DNA from: Promicromonospora iranensis
GTDB lineage: Bacteria > Actinomycetota > Actinomycetes > Actinomycetales > Cellulomonadaceae
Length of the DNA stretch: 64,000 nt
Assembly (NCBI RefSeq): GCF_028994805.1
Contig: NZ_JAJQQP010000013.1
Location: 62,001-126,000 of the forward strand
Reading direction: 5' to 3'
Shown piece after piece: positions 2,226-7,464 of this stretch. A program made the position numbers and the translations under genes. Numbering within the stretch: position 1 is the stretch's first letter; each line of letters starts with the position of its first letter. A model generated the notes under the pieces. That model was not told where the DNA came from, searched no databases, and was given only the letters and a program-made list of their open reading frames with translations.

Positions 2226-3851
2226 TCACCCGGACCGGGTCAGGTCGGTCCCGCTGCCAGCACCGCCGCCCGTGCCGCGGCTCTCCGTTCCGGCCGGCCG
2301 GTCGGCCTGCCCCACCTGGCCCGCCCGACCCGCCACCAAGACCCGGTCGTGCTCCACCACCGGGACGACATGACCCGTGCCGAACCGCCGCGACAGCGCA
2401 CCGCGCAGCCGCTCGCGCCCGCTGAGCCGCCCGTCGCCGCCCGCCCGCCCGGGCGCCGCCGGGACCGGGGTGACGGACAGCAGGGCCAGCTCCGCGTCAC
2501 CGGCCGGCTGGTGGATCTCCGCGTACCCGCCGTTCGACATCCGGACGACCCGTCCCGTCTCGTGCCCGTGCAGCGCGACCTCACGATCCTTGCGCTGCAG
2601 CCCGATGCAGACGCGCCGGGTCACCTCGAACGCCAGCGCGGGACCGACGAGCAGAGCGACCTGCAGCGTCGTGATGATCGTCTCGAACGGGACGCTGAGC
2701 TCCGTGGAGACGATGTCGGCGCTCGCGGCGCCCCACAGGATCCCGTAGAAGAGCACACCGGCCACGCCGATGCCCGTACGGACCGGGACGTTCCGCGGCC
2801 GGTCGAGCACGTGGTGCGGCGCGCGGTCCTGGTCGACCCACGCCTCGAGGTACGGGTAGACGATCAGGACCGCGAAGTAGCCGGCGATCACGACCAGCGG
2901 GACCAGCGTCGCGAAGGTGACGGTCCAGCCCAGCCACTCGGCCTCCCAGCCGACCGGCACGAGCCGGAGCGCGCCGTCGAGGAAGCCCATGTACCAGTCG
3001 GGCTGGCTCCCCGCACCGACCTCGCCCCCGGACGCGGGCCCGTAGGACCAGACGGGGCTGATCGTCGACGTCGCCCCGAGCAGGACCAGCACCGCGGCGG
3101 TCATCCCGGTCATCCCGGCGGCCCGCAGGGCGGCGTCGGGCCAGAGGCGCAGGCCGAGCGAGGCGGCCGGGGCGGACCGCGGGTGCGCCGCCTGCCCGTG
3201 CCGCAGGCTGAGGACGCCCCGCACGACCATGACCAGCACGAGCAGTCCCGGTGCGACGACGGCGTGGACCGGGTACAGGTTCTCGATGATCTGCCCCGGG
3301 AACGGCCCACCGAACATCCAGCTCGCCACCCAGGTGCCGATGAACGGGATGCTGAGGACGACGCCCTCCACGATCCGTAGGCCGGTTCCGGACAGCATGT
3401 CGTCGGGGAGCGCGTACCCGCTCCAGCCGGCCACCAGCACCAGGATGAAGGCCACGACCAGCAGCACCCAGCTCAGCTGCCGCGGACGGCGGAACCCGCC
3501 GGTGAAGAACGTGACCAGGAGCTGCACGATCATCGAGGCCGGCATGACGAGGGCTGCCCAGTGGTGCGTCTGGCGCACCAGCAGGCCGCCGGTCTGCTCG
3601 AAGGAGATGCGCATCGTCGAGTCGAAGGCCTCGGTCACGGTCGCTCCCCGCAGCGGCCCGTACGGCCCGTCATAGGTGACGAGCTCGTTCGACGGCGTGT
3701 ACCAGAACGCCAGGAGCACCCCCGTCACGGCGAGGACGATCAGGCAGGCGAAGGTCACGACGCCGAACAGGTTCGACCAGCGCAGCTGTACCCGGCGCCG
3801 GCCGAGCATCGCGAGGAACGCGGTCCGACGACGGTCGCGGTCAGCTCGCAT
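2226..3851 (-). CDS. qcrB: QcrB-like cytochrome b lacking both heme bH ligands
   Basis: Menaquinol-cytochrome c reductase cytochrome b homologue of 541 residues, collinear with mycobacterial QcrB (TYDGPYGPLRG, ISFEQTGGLLVRQTHHWAA, FFTGGFRRPRQ, GYALPDDMLSG, AGSQPDWYM, CIGLQRKDRE). In helix B His96 is kept, but the residue 14 later, normally the second His, is Gln110 (MIVQLLVTFF). In helix D His196 is kept, but the residue 15 later is Arg211 (MVVRGVLSL). By family knowledge the retained pair ligates heme bL and the lost pair ligates heme bH. The Qo-site PDWY motif remains. No qcrA or qcrC is adjacent. Its start overlaps the end of ndh by 11 bp, implying translational coupling. It is probably an extra, specialised copy; integral membrane. 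Confidence 0.9.
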   Translation of the reverse strand: MRADRDRRRTAFLAMLGRRRVQLRWSNLFGVVTFACLIVLAVTGVLLAFWYTPSNELVTYDGPYGPLRGATVTEAFDSTMRISFEQTGGLLVRQTHHWAALVMPASMIVQLLVTFFTGGFRRPRQLSWVLLVVAFILVLVAGWSGYALPDDMLSGTGLRIVEGVVLSIPFIGTWVASWMFGGPFPGQIIENLYPVHAVVAPGLLVLVMVVRGVLSLRHGQAAHPRSAPAASLGLRLWPDAALRAAGMTGMTAAVLVLLGATSTISPVWSYGPASGGEVGAGSQPDWYMGFLDGALRLVPVGWEAEWLGWTVTFATLVPLVVIAGYFAVLIVYPYLEAWVDQDRAPHHVLDRPRNVPVRTGIGVAGVLFYGILWGAASADIVSTELSVPFETIITTLQVALLVGPALAFEVTRRVCIGLQRKDREVALHGHETGRVVRMSNGGYAEIHQPAGDAELALLSVTPVPAAPGRAGGDGRLSGRERLRGALSRRFGTGHVVPVVEHDRVLVAGRAGQVGQADRPAGTESRGTGGGAGSGTDLTRSG

Positions 3852-5208
3852 CGCGCACCACGCTCAGCTCGGGACGTTCGCCGTCGACGCCGGCGAACGG
3901 GTCGCCGCCCGCGAGGAAGGCCGCCCGCGGCCGCTGCACCGTGGCGAGCGGGATGATGTCTCGCCCGAAGAACATCGCCGAGACCCAGACCAGCAGCACG
4001 CGCACCTTGCGCTCCCAGGTGGGGACGGCCAGGACGTGGTAGCCGCGGTGCATGAGCCAGGCCAGGAACCCCGTGATGACCAGGCGGCGGTACTGGAAGA
4101 TGCCCTGCCCGATGCCGAGGGTCGCCACCGTGCCGAGGCTGTGGTGGAGATACTGCCGCGGCTGCTTGCCTCGGAGGTCCGCGACGAGGTTCTTCGCCAG
4201 CAGCCGGCCCTGGCGTACCGCGTGCTGTGCGTTGGGCACCGTCCGCGCGCCGGGGACCGGGGCGGCGAGGTCGGGCACGGCGGCGTTGTCGCCGGCGGCC
4301 CAGGCGTGGGCCACCGGAGCGTCGTCGGTGCCGACCCGGAGGTCGGCCCGGACGCGGACGAGGCCGCGCTCGTCGACCGGCAGGTCCGTGTTCCGTGCGA
4401 CGACGGGGTTGCTGGCGTTGCCGGCCGCCCAGACGAGCAGCCCGTTGCCGTAGGACTCGCCGGTGGACAGCATGATCCGGCCGTCCGCGGCCGAGACGAC
4501 CTGGGTGCCCAGATGGACGCGCGCCCCTCGGCGCTCGAGGTGCCGCACCACCCAGCGGCCGGGCTTGTCGGTGACCTCGGGCAGGATGCGGTCGTTCGCG
4601 TCGACCAGGTGGAACGCCAGGTCGTCGCGGCTGAGCTCCGGGTAGGCGCGCAGCAGGCTCGTGGCCAGGGACAGCAGCTCGCCGAACACCTCGACCCCGG
4701 TGAACCCGCCGCCCACGACGGTCACCGTCAGCAGCCGGCGGCGCTCGGGACCTGGCGGGAGCAGGGCGGCGTGGTCGAACGCGGTCAGGAGGCGGTCGCG
4801 GATCGCCACCGCCTCCTCGACGTGCTTGAGGCCTATCGCCTCCTGCTCGATCCCCGGGACAGGGAACGTGCGGGTCACCGCCCCGGCGGTCACGACGATC
4901 GTGTCGTACCCGATCTCGCGCAGGGCGCCGTCGTTCGTCCGGACGGTCGCCGTGCGGTGCGCGTGGTCGATCGACGTCGTGTGGCCCGCGACGATCGTCG
5001 TGCGCCGTAGGTGCCTGCGGAGCGACACCATGACGTGCCGCGCCTCGATCGAGCCGGCGGTGACCTCCGGCAGGAACGGCTGGTAGGTCATGTAGCCGTG
5101 CGGGTCGACGAGGGTGACCTCCGCCTCGCCCCGGCGGAGCTTCTTCTCCAGCCCCCACGCGGTGTAGAAGCCGGCGTAGCCGCCGCCGACGATCAGGATC
5201 TTCTCCAT
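3841..5208 (-). CDS. ndh: Type II NADH dehydrogenase (NDH-2)
   Basis: Non-proton-pumping NADH:menaquinone oxidoreductase of 455 residues on the inner membrane face. It begins MEKILIVGGGYAGFYTAWGLE (FAD Rossmann GxGxxG variant) and has a second dinucleotide motif VTVVGGGFTGVEVFGEL for NADH. The family signatures LVWAAGNASNP and HAWAAGDNAAVPD (FAD-binding) and a C-terminal hydrophobic segment near VRVLLVWVSAMFFGRDI for membrane attachment are visible. A good AGGAGG ribosome site precedes the ATG at 5208. It is the first gene of a two-gene operon with the aberrant qcrB, so reduced quinone would be made beside that protein. Related carotenoid or sulfide:quinone oxidoreductases are possible alternatives, but NDH-2 fits best. 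Confidence 0.85.
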   Translation of the reverse strand: MEKILIVGGGYAGFYTAWGLEKKLRRGEAEVTLVDPHGYMTYQPFLPEVTAGSIEARHVMVSLRRHLRRTTIVAGHTTSIDHAHRTATVRTNDGALREIGYDTIVVTAGAVTRTFPVPGIEQEAIGLKHVEEAVAIRDRLLTAFDHAALLPPGPERRRLLTVTVVGGGFTGVEVFGELLSLATSLLRAYPELSRDDLAFHLVDANDRILPEVTDKPGRWVVRHLERRGARVHLGTQVVSAADGRIMLSTGESYGNGLLVWAAGNASNPVVARNTDLPVDERGLVRVRADLRVGTDDAPVAHAWAAGDNAAVPDLAAPVPGARTVPNAQHAVRQGRLLAKNLVADLRGKQPRQYLHHSLGTVATLGIGQGIFQYRRLVITGFLAWLMHRGYHVLAVPTWERKVRVLLVWVSAMFFGRDIIPLATVQRPRAAFLAGGDPFAGVDGERPELSVVRDAS

Positions 5209-5254
5209 GACAACCTCCTGTGGTCTTACCTGATCGACAACGCAGCGCCGCGAG

Positions 5255-5277
5255 ATGTGACGTGGTGGTGGTCACAT
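5255..5277. promoter_or_regulatory. Inverted repeat upstream of ndh-qcrB
   Basis: The sequence ATGTGAC, nine bases, GTCACAT lies 47 bp upstream of the ndh start, between ndh and the NPP1 remnant. The half-sites resemble CRP/GlxR-type TGTGA/TCACA, but the spacing is longer than the usual six bases. It is therefore only a candidate operator for the ndh-qcrB operon. Confidence 0.35.
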
Positions 5278-5328: not shown

Positions 5329-5999
5329 TTATGCGGCCGGGTCGAACGGGATCCCGGCCGGCTTCATCCGCTCCAGCCACGACGCGAAGTCGCCGTCGTC
5401 GATCTTGATGGTCGCCCCGCCGAAGTCGGCGGTCATGAGACGGTCGCGCAGCGACGTGCTGGGCCAGCCGTCCCAGCCCACGATCGGCGGGTAGCGCCAG
5501 TCGCCGTAGTGGTTCTCCGGCGGGTCGTCGTTGCCGTTCGCGAGCCGGAACAGGTGCGTGCTCGGCCCGTCCTTGTGGAAGACGATCTTGGGGTGCGAGC
5601 CCTCGAACAGGACCTCCGACCGGGGGTAGGTGGCCGACCCGCTGTGCTCGGTGATCGAGACGTGCTCGACCTGGTTCGAGCCCTGGTCGACCCACACGAC
5701 CACGTGCTCCCAGTCGTGCTTGTGGCTGCCGATCGCGATCGGCCCGTTCATGGTCTGGTCCTTCTCGAAGTAGCTCGCGTACATCACGGCGCACCAGCCG
5801 TTGTTGCACTTCTCGCGCGAGTACGTCTGCGAGTTGTCCAGGTCGGACTGGTCGCGGCAGTTCCCGTTGACGGCGCCGCCGATGTTCAGCCCGGGTGTGA
5901 TCGTGCCGTCCGGGCCGATGGCGGGCGTGGCGTAGCAGCCGTCGCCGTCGTAGTCGTAGGCGGGGGAGAACGACTGCTCGATACCGGCTACCTTGAGGC
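5329..5999 (-). pseudogene. NPP1 / NLP (necrosis-inducing-like) protein gene, 5'-truncated
   Basis: The frame encodes about 220 residues of an NPP1 fold: SFSPAYDYDGDGCYATPAIG, NCRDQSDLDNSQTYSREKC, NGWCAVMMYASYFEKDQT, the signature SHKHDWEHVVVWV (family GHRHDWE), VFHKDGPSTHLFRLANG and a GIPFDPAA end. In this family the signature His, Asp and Glu residues bind the metal needed for membrane damage. No ATG, GTG or TTG start exists before Met at 5787, which lies in mid-domain, and no signal peptide is visible in any frame. The homology fades just at the start of the divergent molybdoenzyme gene at 6000, so the promoter, signal peptide and first strands appear deleted. An internal GTG/ATG start near 5790 would make only a partial domain. 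Confidence 0.75.
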
Positions 6000-6662
6000 A
6001 TGACCAGCGCGACCCCGCCCGTACCAGGCGGCTCCGATCCTGCCGGGCTCGACCACGACCCCGGCGCCGCCCTCACCCCCGGTTTTCGGGGCCGGGCCCG
6101 CCCGGAGGGCGTGACTCTCCCTCCGGGGCAGTACGCGGAGGAGGGATTTCCCGTCCTCTCGGCGGGTCCCACGCCCAACGTCAGCACCGCGACCTGGAGC
6201 TTCGCCGTCACCAACGAGGTGGGCGCCACGAAGTCCTGGACCTGGGCGGAGCTGATGGCGCTGCCCCAGGACACCCCGACCGTGGACATCCACTGCGTCA
6301 CCCGCTGGTCCAAGTTCGGCACCCGCTGGCGCGGCGTCTCCCTCGACGTGCTGCTCGCCGAGGTGGAGTCCACGGCGGAGTTCGCGATGGTGGGCTCCTA
6401 CGGCGGGTACACCACCAACCTCCCGGTGGCGGACCTCCTGGGCGGCAAGGCATGGATCGCGCACACCTTCGACGGGGCGCCGCTGCACCCCGAGCACGGC
6501 GGCCCGGCCCGGCTGCTGGTGCCGCACCTGTACTTCTGGAAGTCGGCCAAGTGGGTACGCTCGCTCACCCTCATGCCGACGGACCGGCCGGGTTTCTGGG
6601 AGAAGCTCGGCTACCACGACCTGGGCGACCCGTGGCGTGAGCAGAGGTACCAGGGTGACTGA
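6000..6662 (+). CDS. Sulfite-oxidase-family molybdopterin-dependent oxidoreductase
   Basis: A 220-residue oxidoreductase molybdopterin-binding domain protein (SUOX/YedY-like core). The segment VDIHCVTRWSKFGTRWRGV carries Cys99, the expected cysteine ligand of molybdenum. GSYGGYTTNLPVADLL, GAPLHPEHGGPARLLVPHLY and WKSAKWVRSLTLM match the rest of the fold. There is no signal peptide or Tat motif, so it is probably cytoplasmic. The next gene, a ferredoxin-reductase-like flavoprotein, overlaps its 3' end, so the two likely form an electron-transfer pair: reductase supplying or accepting electrons, molybdoenzyme handling substrate. The substrate is unknown. Confidence 0.88.
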   Translation: MTSATPPVPGGSDPAGLDHDPGAALTPGFRGRARPEGVTLPPGQYAEEGFPVLSAGPTPNVSTATWSFAVTNEVGATKSWTWAELMALPQDTPTVDIHCVTRWSKFGTRWRGVSLDVLLAEVESTAEFAMVGSYGGYTTNLPVADLLGGKAWIAHTFDGAPLHPEHGGPARLLVPHLYFWKSAKWVRSLTLMPTDRPGFWEKLGYHDLGDPWREQRYQGD

Positions 6663-7464
6663 GGCCCGGTCCGCGGAGGCTGAGCCTCGGGGGGCGCGGC
6701 TCGGCGACCGGTACGCCGTCCCCTCCGGCTGGCAGGTCGCCACGCTGGTGGGGCGGCGGGCGGAGAGCGCGTCCGCGGTGACCCTCGTGCTCGATGTCCC
6801 GGGCTGGCCGGGCCACCTGGCGGGTCAGCACCTCGACCTGCGCCTCACCGCACCCGACGGCTACACGGCCGAGCGGTCGTACTCCCTCGCGAGCGGTCCG
6901 GCGGCGCCCGGGACCGGTCGGGTCGAGGTCACGGTCCAGCGCGTGCGCGACGGTGAGGTGTCCCCGTACCTCGTCGACCAGTTCCCGCTCGGCTCGGCGA
7001 TCGAGGTGCGTGGCCCCATCGGTGGCTGGTTCGTCTGGGACCCGGTGCGTGACGCCGGCACTCCCGTGCTGCTCGTGGCCGGCGGGTCGGGTCTGGTGCC
7101 GGTGATGGCCATGGCCCGAGCACGCCGGGAGTCCGGTGACCGTACGCCGTTCCGGCTGATCTACTCGGTGCGTACGCCGGAGGACCGGCTGTACCCGGAC
7201 GAGCTGGAGCGGCTCGCCGCCCGTGGCGACGGCTTCGAGGCCAGCACGATCTTCACCAGGGCGGTCTCGCTCACCGCTCTGCGTGGCCCACGACGCCTCA
7301 CCGACTCCGAGGTGGCGTCCTGGGGCTGGCCGGCCGAGCTGGAACCCCGGGTGTACATCTGCGGTCCCACGGGATTCGTCGAGGCAGTCTCGCGCATGGT
7401 CGTGGCCCAGGGACACGATCCGGCCCGCGTCCGGACCGAGCGGTTCGGGCCGGCTGCGGGCTGA
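6637..7464 (+). CDS. FAD/NAD(P)-binding ferredoxin reductase-like oxidoreductase
   Basis: FNR-fold flavoprotein of about 270 residues. The flavin-binding domain shows TAERSYSLASGP (RxYS FAD motif) and EVRGPIGGWFVW; the nucleotide-binding domain shows PVLLVAGGSGLVPVMAMARA, LIYSVRTPEDRLYPDEL and YICGPTGFVEAVSRMV (CGPxxF). No 2Fe-2S domain is present, so it is the reductase core only. The listed start is GTG at 6637; a second GTG at 6655, six codons on, is also plausible. It overlaps the upstream molybdoenzyme gene by about 26 bp, indicating co-translation and a shared reaction. Confidence 0.85.
   Translation: MSRGTRVTEARSAEAEPRGARLGDRYAVPSGWQVATLVGRRAESASAVTLVLDVPGWPGHLAGQHLDLRLTAPDGYTAERSYSLASGPAAPGTGRVEVTVQRVRDGEVSPYLVDQFPLGSAIEVRGPIGGWFVWDPVRDAGTPVLLVAGGSGLVPVMAMARARRESGDRTPFRLIYSVRTPEDRLYPDELERLAARGDGFEASTIFTRAVSLTALRGPRRLTDSEVASWGWPAELEPRVYICGPTGFVEAVSRMVVAQGHDPARVRTERFGPAAG

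Follow-up and report, generated by a model that had tools for sequence, protein, structure and literature searches.

Two hemes and two quinone sites are a hallmark of Q-cycle cytochromes b. The first His of helices B and D ligates heme bL, and the second His of each helix ligates heme bH. In the bcc-aa3 complexes of Actinobacteria, whose cytochrome b is QcrB, bL lies on the periplasmic side and bH on the cytoplasmic side (PMC8616580). How bL and the quinol site (QP, or Qo) behave without bH has been approached with engineered mutants (PMC4330944, PMC4892266). In Rhodobacter H212N, the helix-D bH ligand is removed from a complete bc1 complex, which inactivates the Qi branch; bL is still reduced, and the b-chain takes one electron. 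Extra QcrB proteins encoded outside the qcr operon are known in Streptomyces, such as QcrB2 and QcrB3 of S. coelicolor. The subject of this study is a gene on the reverse strand (2226-3851) of a 64,000-nucleotide stretch of the Promicromonospora iranensis genome (contig NZ_JAJQQP010000013.1, positions 62,001 to 126,000), hereafter the window. It encodes a QcrB-type cytochrome b, P0001, which is best read as a natural counterpart of the laboratory "bH knockouts", i.e. a QcrB paralogue that has a single quinone site and a single heme and would be fed through an NDH-2-type NADH:quinone oxidoreductase.

The reading frame of P0001 is uninterrupted over 541 amino acids (aa) and contains the full cytochrome b fold of the bc1/b6f type, scoring 136.4 bits against PF13631 (curated cut-off 27) and 83.1 bits against PF00033 (curated cut-off 27.2). 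Against NF050120, the NCBIfam model for actinobacterial QcrB of the bcc complex, it scores 497.8 bits, slightly below the cut-off of 500. P0001 carries PDWY, the PEWY-type Qo motif expected of QcrB from that complex, and holds two of the four His heme ligands that characterize it. Three further QcrB copies are encoded in the same genome (5.84 Mb, 31 contigs), all with His at the four ligand places.

When aligned by phmmer with Mycobacterium smegmatis QcrB (6adq), His96, Gln110, His196, and Arg211 of P0001 face chain residues 109, 123, 211, and 226, which are the four heme-ligand positions. An earlier note on this DNA had claimed that both bH ligands are lost, to Gln110 (CAG, 3522-3524) and Arg211 (CGG, 3219-3221), whereas His96 and His196, the bL ligands, are kept. 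The codons and coordinates are as it gave them, both His are present, and the assignment is borne out by the alignment with 6adq and by the orthologues described below. All four residues are invariant in the 19 rows of alignment set A1. No other His qualifies as a substitute bH ligand: the invariant His in A1 are at 96, 97, 196, 428, and 447 only, and since His97 is the canonical neighbor of His96, none of them lies at the bH site.

To avoid the circularity of counting ligands in row sets chosen by the Gln/Arg trait, clade membership for all residue counts was taken from a tree of 107 rows computed with nine trait columns left out (identical rows were removed, the partial L078 was excluded, and L074 lacks its N terminus). 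The 49 rows with Gln110 form one side of a branch with a support of 99 in the Shimodaira-Hasegawa-like approximate likelihood ratio test (SH-aLRT); together with L060, a Rhodoglobus metagenome-assembled genome (MAG), they form a 50-row clade with an SH-aLRT of 100. The same grouping is found when the trait columns are included. The clade has one origin and its rows are related, so that row counts are not counts of independent events.

Comparison of the 50 clade rows with the other 57 rows shows that the replacements extend well beyond the ligands. Gln110 occurs in 49/50 clade rows and Arg211 in 48/50, whereas the others have His110 in 57/57 and His211 in 55/57. In helix C, Leu131 (49/50) replaces a Gly found in 57/57 of the others, which also have Arg113 (57/57), Glu31 (57/57), Phe27 (57/57), His220 (56/57), and Phe21 (56/57); in the clade, these five residues occur in 0, 1, 0, 0, and 2 rows, respectively. 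On the other hand, the clade retains His96, His196, and Gly145 in 50/50 rows, and Arg93 and Gly44 in 49/50, with one gap each. Gly30, on the bH side, is retained in 47/50, which tells against a complete remodelling of the bH site. We take Gly30, Gly131, Arg113, Arg93, Gly44, and Gly145 to be heme-packing or propionate residues, an assignment carried over from mitochondrial numbering. Sites 21 and 31 match, by the 6adq alignment offset, Phe39 and Glu49, which are QN-site residues (PMC8616580, section 6). The clade also has a one-residue deletion ahead of helix D.

Loss and retention were also counted by membrane side, with sides assigned from predicted helices and with clade rows chosen by the Gln/Arg trait plus L075. 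In the four-helix part, the periplasmic side keeps 34/42 canonical-invariant sites and the cytoplasmic side only 11/32 (Fisher p 9e-5). The corresponding figures for the C-terminal half are 16/20 and 20/21, and the latter rules out a general decay of the cytoplasmic side. As read from these alignments, the clade has kept the pocket of heme bL and, on the periplasmic side, the quinol site (QP/Qo), and has replaced the bH ligands together with bH-side and QN-side residues; a heme site and a quinone site were lost as a pair, and most of the remainder is retained. It is therefore highly likely from the sequence that P0001 holds a single heme, bL, and the protein alone is probably unable to run a normal, energy-conserving Q-cycle. 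This agrees with the mono-heme prediction of the earlier note, residues 131, 113, 21, 31, and 220 being nearly always changed while their bL-side counterparts are kept.

Several features thus set the clade apart from the QcrB of bcc-aa3 complexes (M. smegmatis 6adq and 6hwh, Corynebacterium glutamicum 7q21): Gln/Arg at the bH ligands, the loss of the Gly in helix C, of the propionate-type Arg, and of the QN residues, the deletion before helix D, and a gene outside the qcrCAB operon that has an ECF41-type promoter match at most loci examined and is coupled to an NDH-2-type gene at about half of the named ones. Like Rhodobacter H212N, in which bL remains reducible (PMC4330944), the clade has no helix-D bH ligand and keeps the bL ligands. 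Unlike that engineered mutant, it carries a natural, conserved double replacement in a remodelled site, and its genes have no linked Rieske or cytochrome c1 gene. Coordinates of the features are listed in Table 1.

Table 1. Features of the predicted one-heme cytochrome b locus in the window, and of a flavoprotein gene recurring at related loci (locus coordinates)
Feature	Position	Strand	Remark
QcrB-type cytochrome b (541 aa), predicted to bind only heme bL	2226..3851	-	P0001
His96, bL ligand of helix B, kept	3564..3566	-	50/50 clade rows
Gln110 (CAG), replacing bH ligand His of helix B	3522..3524	-	49/50 clade rows
Leu131 (CTG), helix C, replacing Gly	3459..3461	-	Leu in 49/50 clade rows, Val in L060; Gly in 57/57 others
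His196, bL ligand of helix D, kept	3264..3266	-	50/50 clade rows
Arg211 (CGG), replacing bH ligand His of helix D	3219..3221	-	48/50 clade rows; Trp in L075, Tyr in L060
PDWY, residues 284-287, Qo/QP-site motif	2991..3002	-	invariant in alignment sets A1 and A2
NDH-2-type FAD NADH:quinone oxidoreductase, 455 aa	3841..5208	-	directly upstream of cytochrome b
AGGAGG, likely ribosome-binding site of NDH-2 gene	5214..5219	-	read from sequence
ECF41-type promoter match, CGTCACA-N16-TGTC	5236..5262	-	just ahead of NDH-2 gene
SdhA/FrdA-like flavoprotein	L046 4810-6540; L048 4767-6497		L048 copy: FAD_binding_2 + Succ_DH_flav_C
SdhA/FrdA-like flavoprotein	L075 9188-11089; L084 9582-11345; L093 11193-12950		

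Within a sample of 59 genomes, P. iranensis included, orthologues were found in 11 of the 12 other members of the genus and in two further genomes (G014 and G056). The one genus member without the cytochrome b gene (G009) tells little, because its NDH-2 gene sits near a contig end (919 bases away). In wider samples searched at E ≤1e-140, a threshold that may miss members near or below 50% identity, matches came from G301, G183, G222, and G305 besides P. iranensis and G056 (order, 297 genomes), with G515 added in the class (394 genomes) and P. iranensis and G056 alone in the phylum (396 genomes). A scan of named genomes, from which the best 80 rows were kept, gave 79 loci. Among the named matches listed, the clade comprises Promicromonospora, Antribacter, Myceligenerans, Pseudactinotalea, Isoptericola MAGs, Agromyces, Leifsonia, Microbacterium, Okibacterium, Humibacter, Naasia, Pseudolysinimonas, Nocardioides, and Microlunatus, plus further MAGs. 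There are two exceptions to the Gln/Arg pair. Microlunatus parietis (L075) has Trp at 211. L060, sister to the rest, has His110/Tyr211, with Gly131 changed to Val and Arg113 to Ser and with His110 and Glu31 retained, which suggests that the helix-D bH ligand was lost first.

P0001 could in principle be a degenerate or artefactual copy, being an extra gene beside three canonical QcrB in its own genome. This is hardly credible given that the replacements are nearly invariant in 50 rows from several families, that dN/dS (the ratio of nonsynonymous to synonymous substitution rates) of P0001 compared with nine orthologues ranges from 0.12 to 0.38 over the core, that the frame is intact, and that the promoter recurs. 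A lone decay event or a sequencing error is ruled out by the orthologue set (19/19 rows in A1 and the 50-row clade), and the refutation that the earlier note had envisaged, orthologues with His and a single decayed copy, fails, as the paired one-sided loss is conserved. By these sequence comparisons, P0001 belongs to a clade of QcrB paralogues that is conserved and has a single origin.

Nine plasmid-borne QcrB, i.e. all those examined among 12 records (H1, H2, and H5 set aside) retrieved at E ≤1e-100 with at most 44.2% identity, keep all four His, which further argues against degeneration; life outside the qcr operon alone therefore does not erode the bH site. For the five plasmid copies with annotated flanks, no Rieske or cytochrome c gene is listed in a gene table that is itself incomplete. 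On the Streptomyces plasmids L159, L160, L161, and L167, a four-His QcrB is followed by a DUF3099 gene, with no annotated Rieske in the stretch. Five Streptomyces QcrB paralogues (L084, L090, L091, L093, and L116) group with canonical QcrB, apart from the Gln/Arg clade. In two of the five, L084 (7890-9515) and L090 (8007-9548), Tyr replaces the helix-D bH His; unlike the clade, both retain His110, Gly131, Arg113, and Glu31, and His220 is Leu in L090. The clade resembles the Streptomyces paralogues in being extra QcrB outside the qcr operon. L084 has an NDH-2 of the clade type (72%) upstream, and an ECF41-like sigma gene lies near four of the five Streptomyces loci.

The gene directly upstream encodes an NDH-2-type protein, and its 3' end, stop codon included, shares 11 bp with the beginning of the cytochrome b gene. 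It scores 133.1 bits against PF07992 (Pyr_redox_2), and its best PDB match is 9mqy, a non-electrogenic NADH:ubiquinone reductase (1.4e-35). The translation reads AQHAVRQ, one residue longer than AQxAxQ, the quinone-site motif of NDH-2. Its best relatives in the 12 other genus members are 88-95% identical, and a second NDH-2 of 41-42% identity is present in 13/13 genus genomes. Neighborhoods were compared in flanks of up to 8 kb for 42 named clade loci and 32 canonical loci. A home-made gene caller that was run on the loci overlooked some genes, e.g. the NDH-2 in L059. An NDH-2 gene was found at 21/42 clade loci (20 directly upstream and one nearby on the other strand) versus 1/32 canonical loci, a gene for an ECF41-like sigma factor (Sigma70 r2/r4 plus SnoaL_2) at 17/42 versus 1/32, and an NmrA-like gene at 11/42 versus 0/32. 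Conversely, a Rieske motif was found at 0/42 clade loci versus 23/32 canonical loci, and qcrC at 1/42 (L060, ∼7 kb away) versus 23/32.

The overlap with NDH-2 and this distribution would also fit a self-standing NDH-2/cytochrome b module that works without Rieske. In it, menaquinol from NDH-2 would reduce bL at QP, and the electron would leave bL for oxygen or for an acceptor in the periplasm or outside the cell. A gene for an SdhA/FrdA-like flavoprotein of ∼576 aa is repeatedly found close to that of cytochrome b or NDH-2 (3/42 clade and 2/5 Streptomyces loci), which can be counted in favor of such a module. However, no conserved periplasmic redox partner was found adjoining the gene, many members from Agromyces, Microbacterium, and Nocardioides lack NDH-2, and a quinol yields two electrons whereas one b heme accepts one, so that we consider this explanation possible but rather doubtful. 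Alternatively, the protein may not transfer electrons at all and may serve as an NDH-2 anchor or regulator, or as a decoy lowering bcc activity, in which bL is merely structural. The loss of one ligand pair, the stress role suggested by the ECF41 link, and the lack of a clear acceptor would be accommodated. An anchor, however, needs neither PDWY nor the bL ligands and their surroundings, all of which are kept clade-wide, and half of the named loci have no linked NDH-2, which makes this explanation unlikely.

The consensus of ECF41 promoters is TGTCACA-n16-CGTC, and ECF41 target operons have oxidoreductase and NmrA/epimerase neighbors (PMC3426412). The match ahead of the NDH-2 gene in the window departs from this consensus by one base in each element. 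With the pattern [TC]GTCACA-N15-17-[CTG]GTC, loosened after seeing the window copy, matches were found upstream of 15/25 NDH-2-led loci, 15/26 cytochrome-b-led loci, and 0/29 canonical loci, for shuffle expectations of 0.10, 0.12, and 0.05, respectively. Without the five Streptomyces loci (2/5 with a match), the pattern occurs at 28/46 clade loci. The 15 matches at NDH-2-led loci start 54 to 68 bases ahead of the gene start. The canonical control is weak, because qcrB is internal to an operon and a promoter directly upstream of it would not be expected. When whole loci were scanned on both strands, the 42 clade loci gave 62 matches (at least one in each of 33 loci), with 36 in five Streptomyces loci and five in 32 canonical loci (three loci), i.e. 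4.6, 20.6, and 0.5 matches per 100 kb of strand. One canonical locus of 32 has a match on the strand of the gene in the first 8000 bases. At this locus, L113 from Actinomadura geliboluensis, ECF41-type matches lie at 4317 and 7695 upstream, and an NDH-2-like gene (35%) is also found upstream of the canonical qcrB. The P. iranensis genome has several ECF41-like sigma genes, the best match being 47% identical and none lying on the contig of the window. The operon is probably controlled by a stress sigma factor of the ECF41 type. Neither "cytochrome" nor "NADH" occurs as a word start in the main text of PMC3426412, relative to which a quinone-linked cytochrome b would be a new kind of ECF41 target.

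The explanation that we favor, to which we assign a probability of about 0.55 as a whole, is a one-heme QcrB, fed by NDH-2 and signalled by ECF41, that works with the housekeeping QcrA and QcrC. In an ECF41-signalled condition, NDH-2 would supply menaquinol to the membrane, and at QP the cytochrome b would take up one electron of the quinol on bL. Lacking both bH and a QN site, the subunit could not carry this electron across the membrane, which would preclude a Q-cycle there. By analogy with laboratory bH knockouts, the electron would stay on bL until an outside acceptor removes it. Most likely QcrA and QcrC would be borrowed for this, via the kept periplasmic face and C-terminal half, whose preservation makes such borrowing plausible. 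Under stress, menaquinol would then be oxidized through a branch that is less coupled or carries one electron.

A mixed dimer of canonical and one-heme QcrB within the bcc complex, in which electrons pass from bL to bL and then to bH of the partner, offers a different exit. There is a precedent for it, since a bc1 engineered to lack bH in one of its halves still functions by bL-bL transfer (PMC4330944). In the sample of 59 genomes, all 14 with a clade gene have a further cytochrome b of 41-45% identity (His ligands checked in the P. iranensis copies), and one of four PF00355 matches in P. iranensis adjoins a QcrB gene. In S. coelicolor, preparations of nitrate reductase contained the unlinked QcrB3 alongside components of bcc-aa3, and according to the authors it may join the supercomplex (PMC7931247). 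Against such a dimer, identity to the canonical copies is just ∼40-47% and the operon is located apart from the qcr genes, and we regard it as improbable. The stricter version, in which exit is solely by bL-bL transfer and the bH cavity has become a Gln/Arg site for e.g. menaquinone, is more improbable still.

Several observations weigh against the favored explanation, a one-heme QcrB that borrows QcrA and QcrC. Half of the named clade loci have no NDH-2 in their flanks, so that it is not a universal partner, and 18/46 clade loci lack even the loosened promoter pattern. The first loose scan, made before the pattern was loosened, found matches at only 1/25 NDH-2-led, 11/26 cytochrome-b-led, and 0/27 canonical loci, and a genome-wide scan of P. 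iranensis with a fixed N16 and a slightly narrower pattern gave 10 matches, window site included, versus four in the reversed control. AlphaFold places no heme. Finally, summed side-chain volume at 26 bH-contact positions, a crude count based on positions transferred from bovine cytochrome b, is 87 cubic angstroms smaller in the clade, even though G131L alone adds 107. This count does not support a bH pocket filled by larger side chains, and the space may be a cavity or may accommodate a different ligand between Gln110 and Arg211.

Among the matches listed in a literature search that had most subscription journals outside its coverage, no paper described a natural bH-less cytochrome b. By keeping half of the two-heme layout under purifying selection, the clade offers a natural experiment on bL and Qo without bH, and it bears on the in vivo use of inter-monomer bL-bL transfer or of Q-cycle bypass. 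It also suggests that actinobacterial genes annotated as cytochrome b of bc complexes can include proteins unable to run a Q-cycle alone.

Some further features were seen in the P. iranensis genome. Two of the canonical qcrB genes lie in tandem on contig C27 (6159-11041 of locus L120), separated by a gene that by eye resembles superoxide dismutase; the third is on contig C12 (locus L121), with no adjoining qcrA or qcrC recognized. In the window, just upstream of the NDH-2/cytochrome b operon, a gene of the NPP1 family (necrosis-inducing-like, 5329-5985, reverse strand) scores 187 bits against PF05630, and relatives occur near some other Promicromonospora loci. It is followed on the forward strand (6000-7464) by overlapping genes for a molybdopterin oxidoreductase and an FAD/NAD reductase, an apparent two-gene operon.
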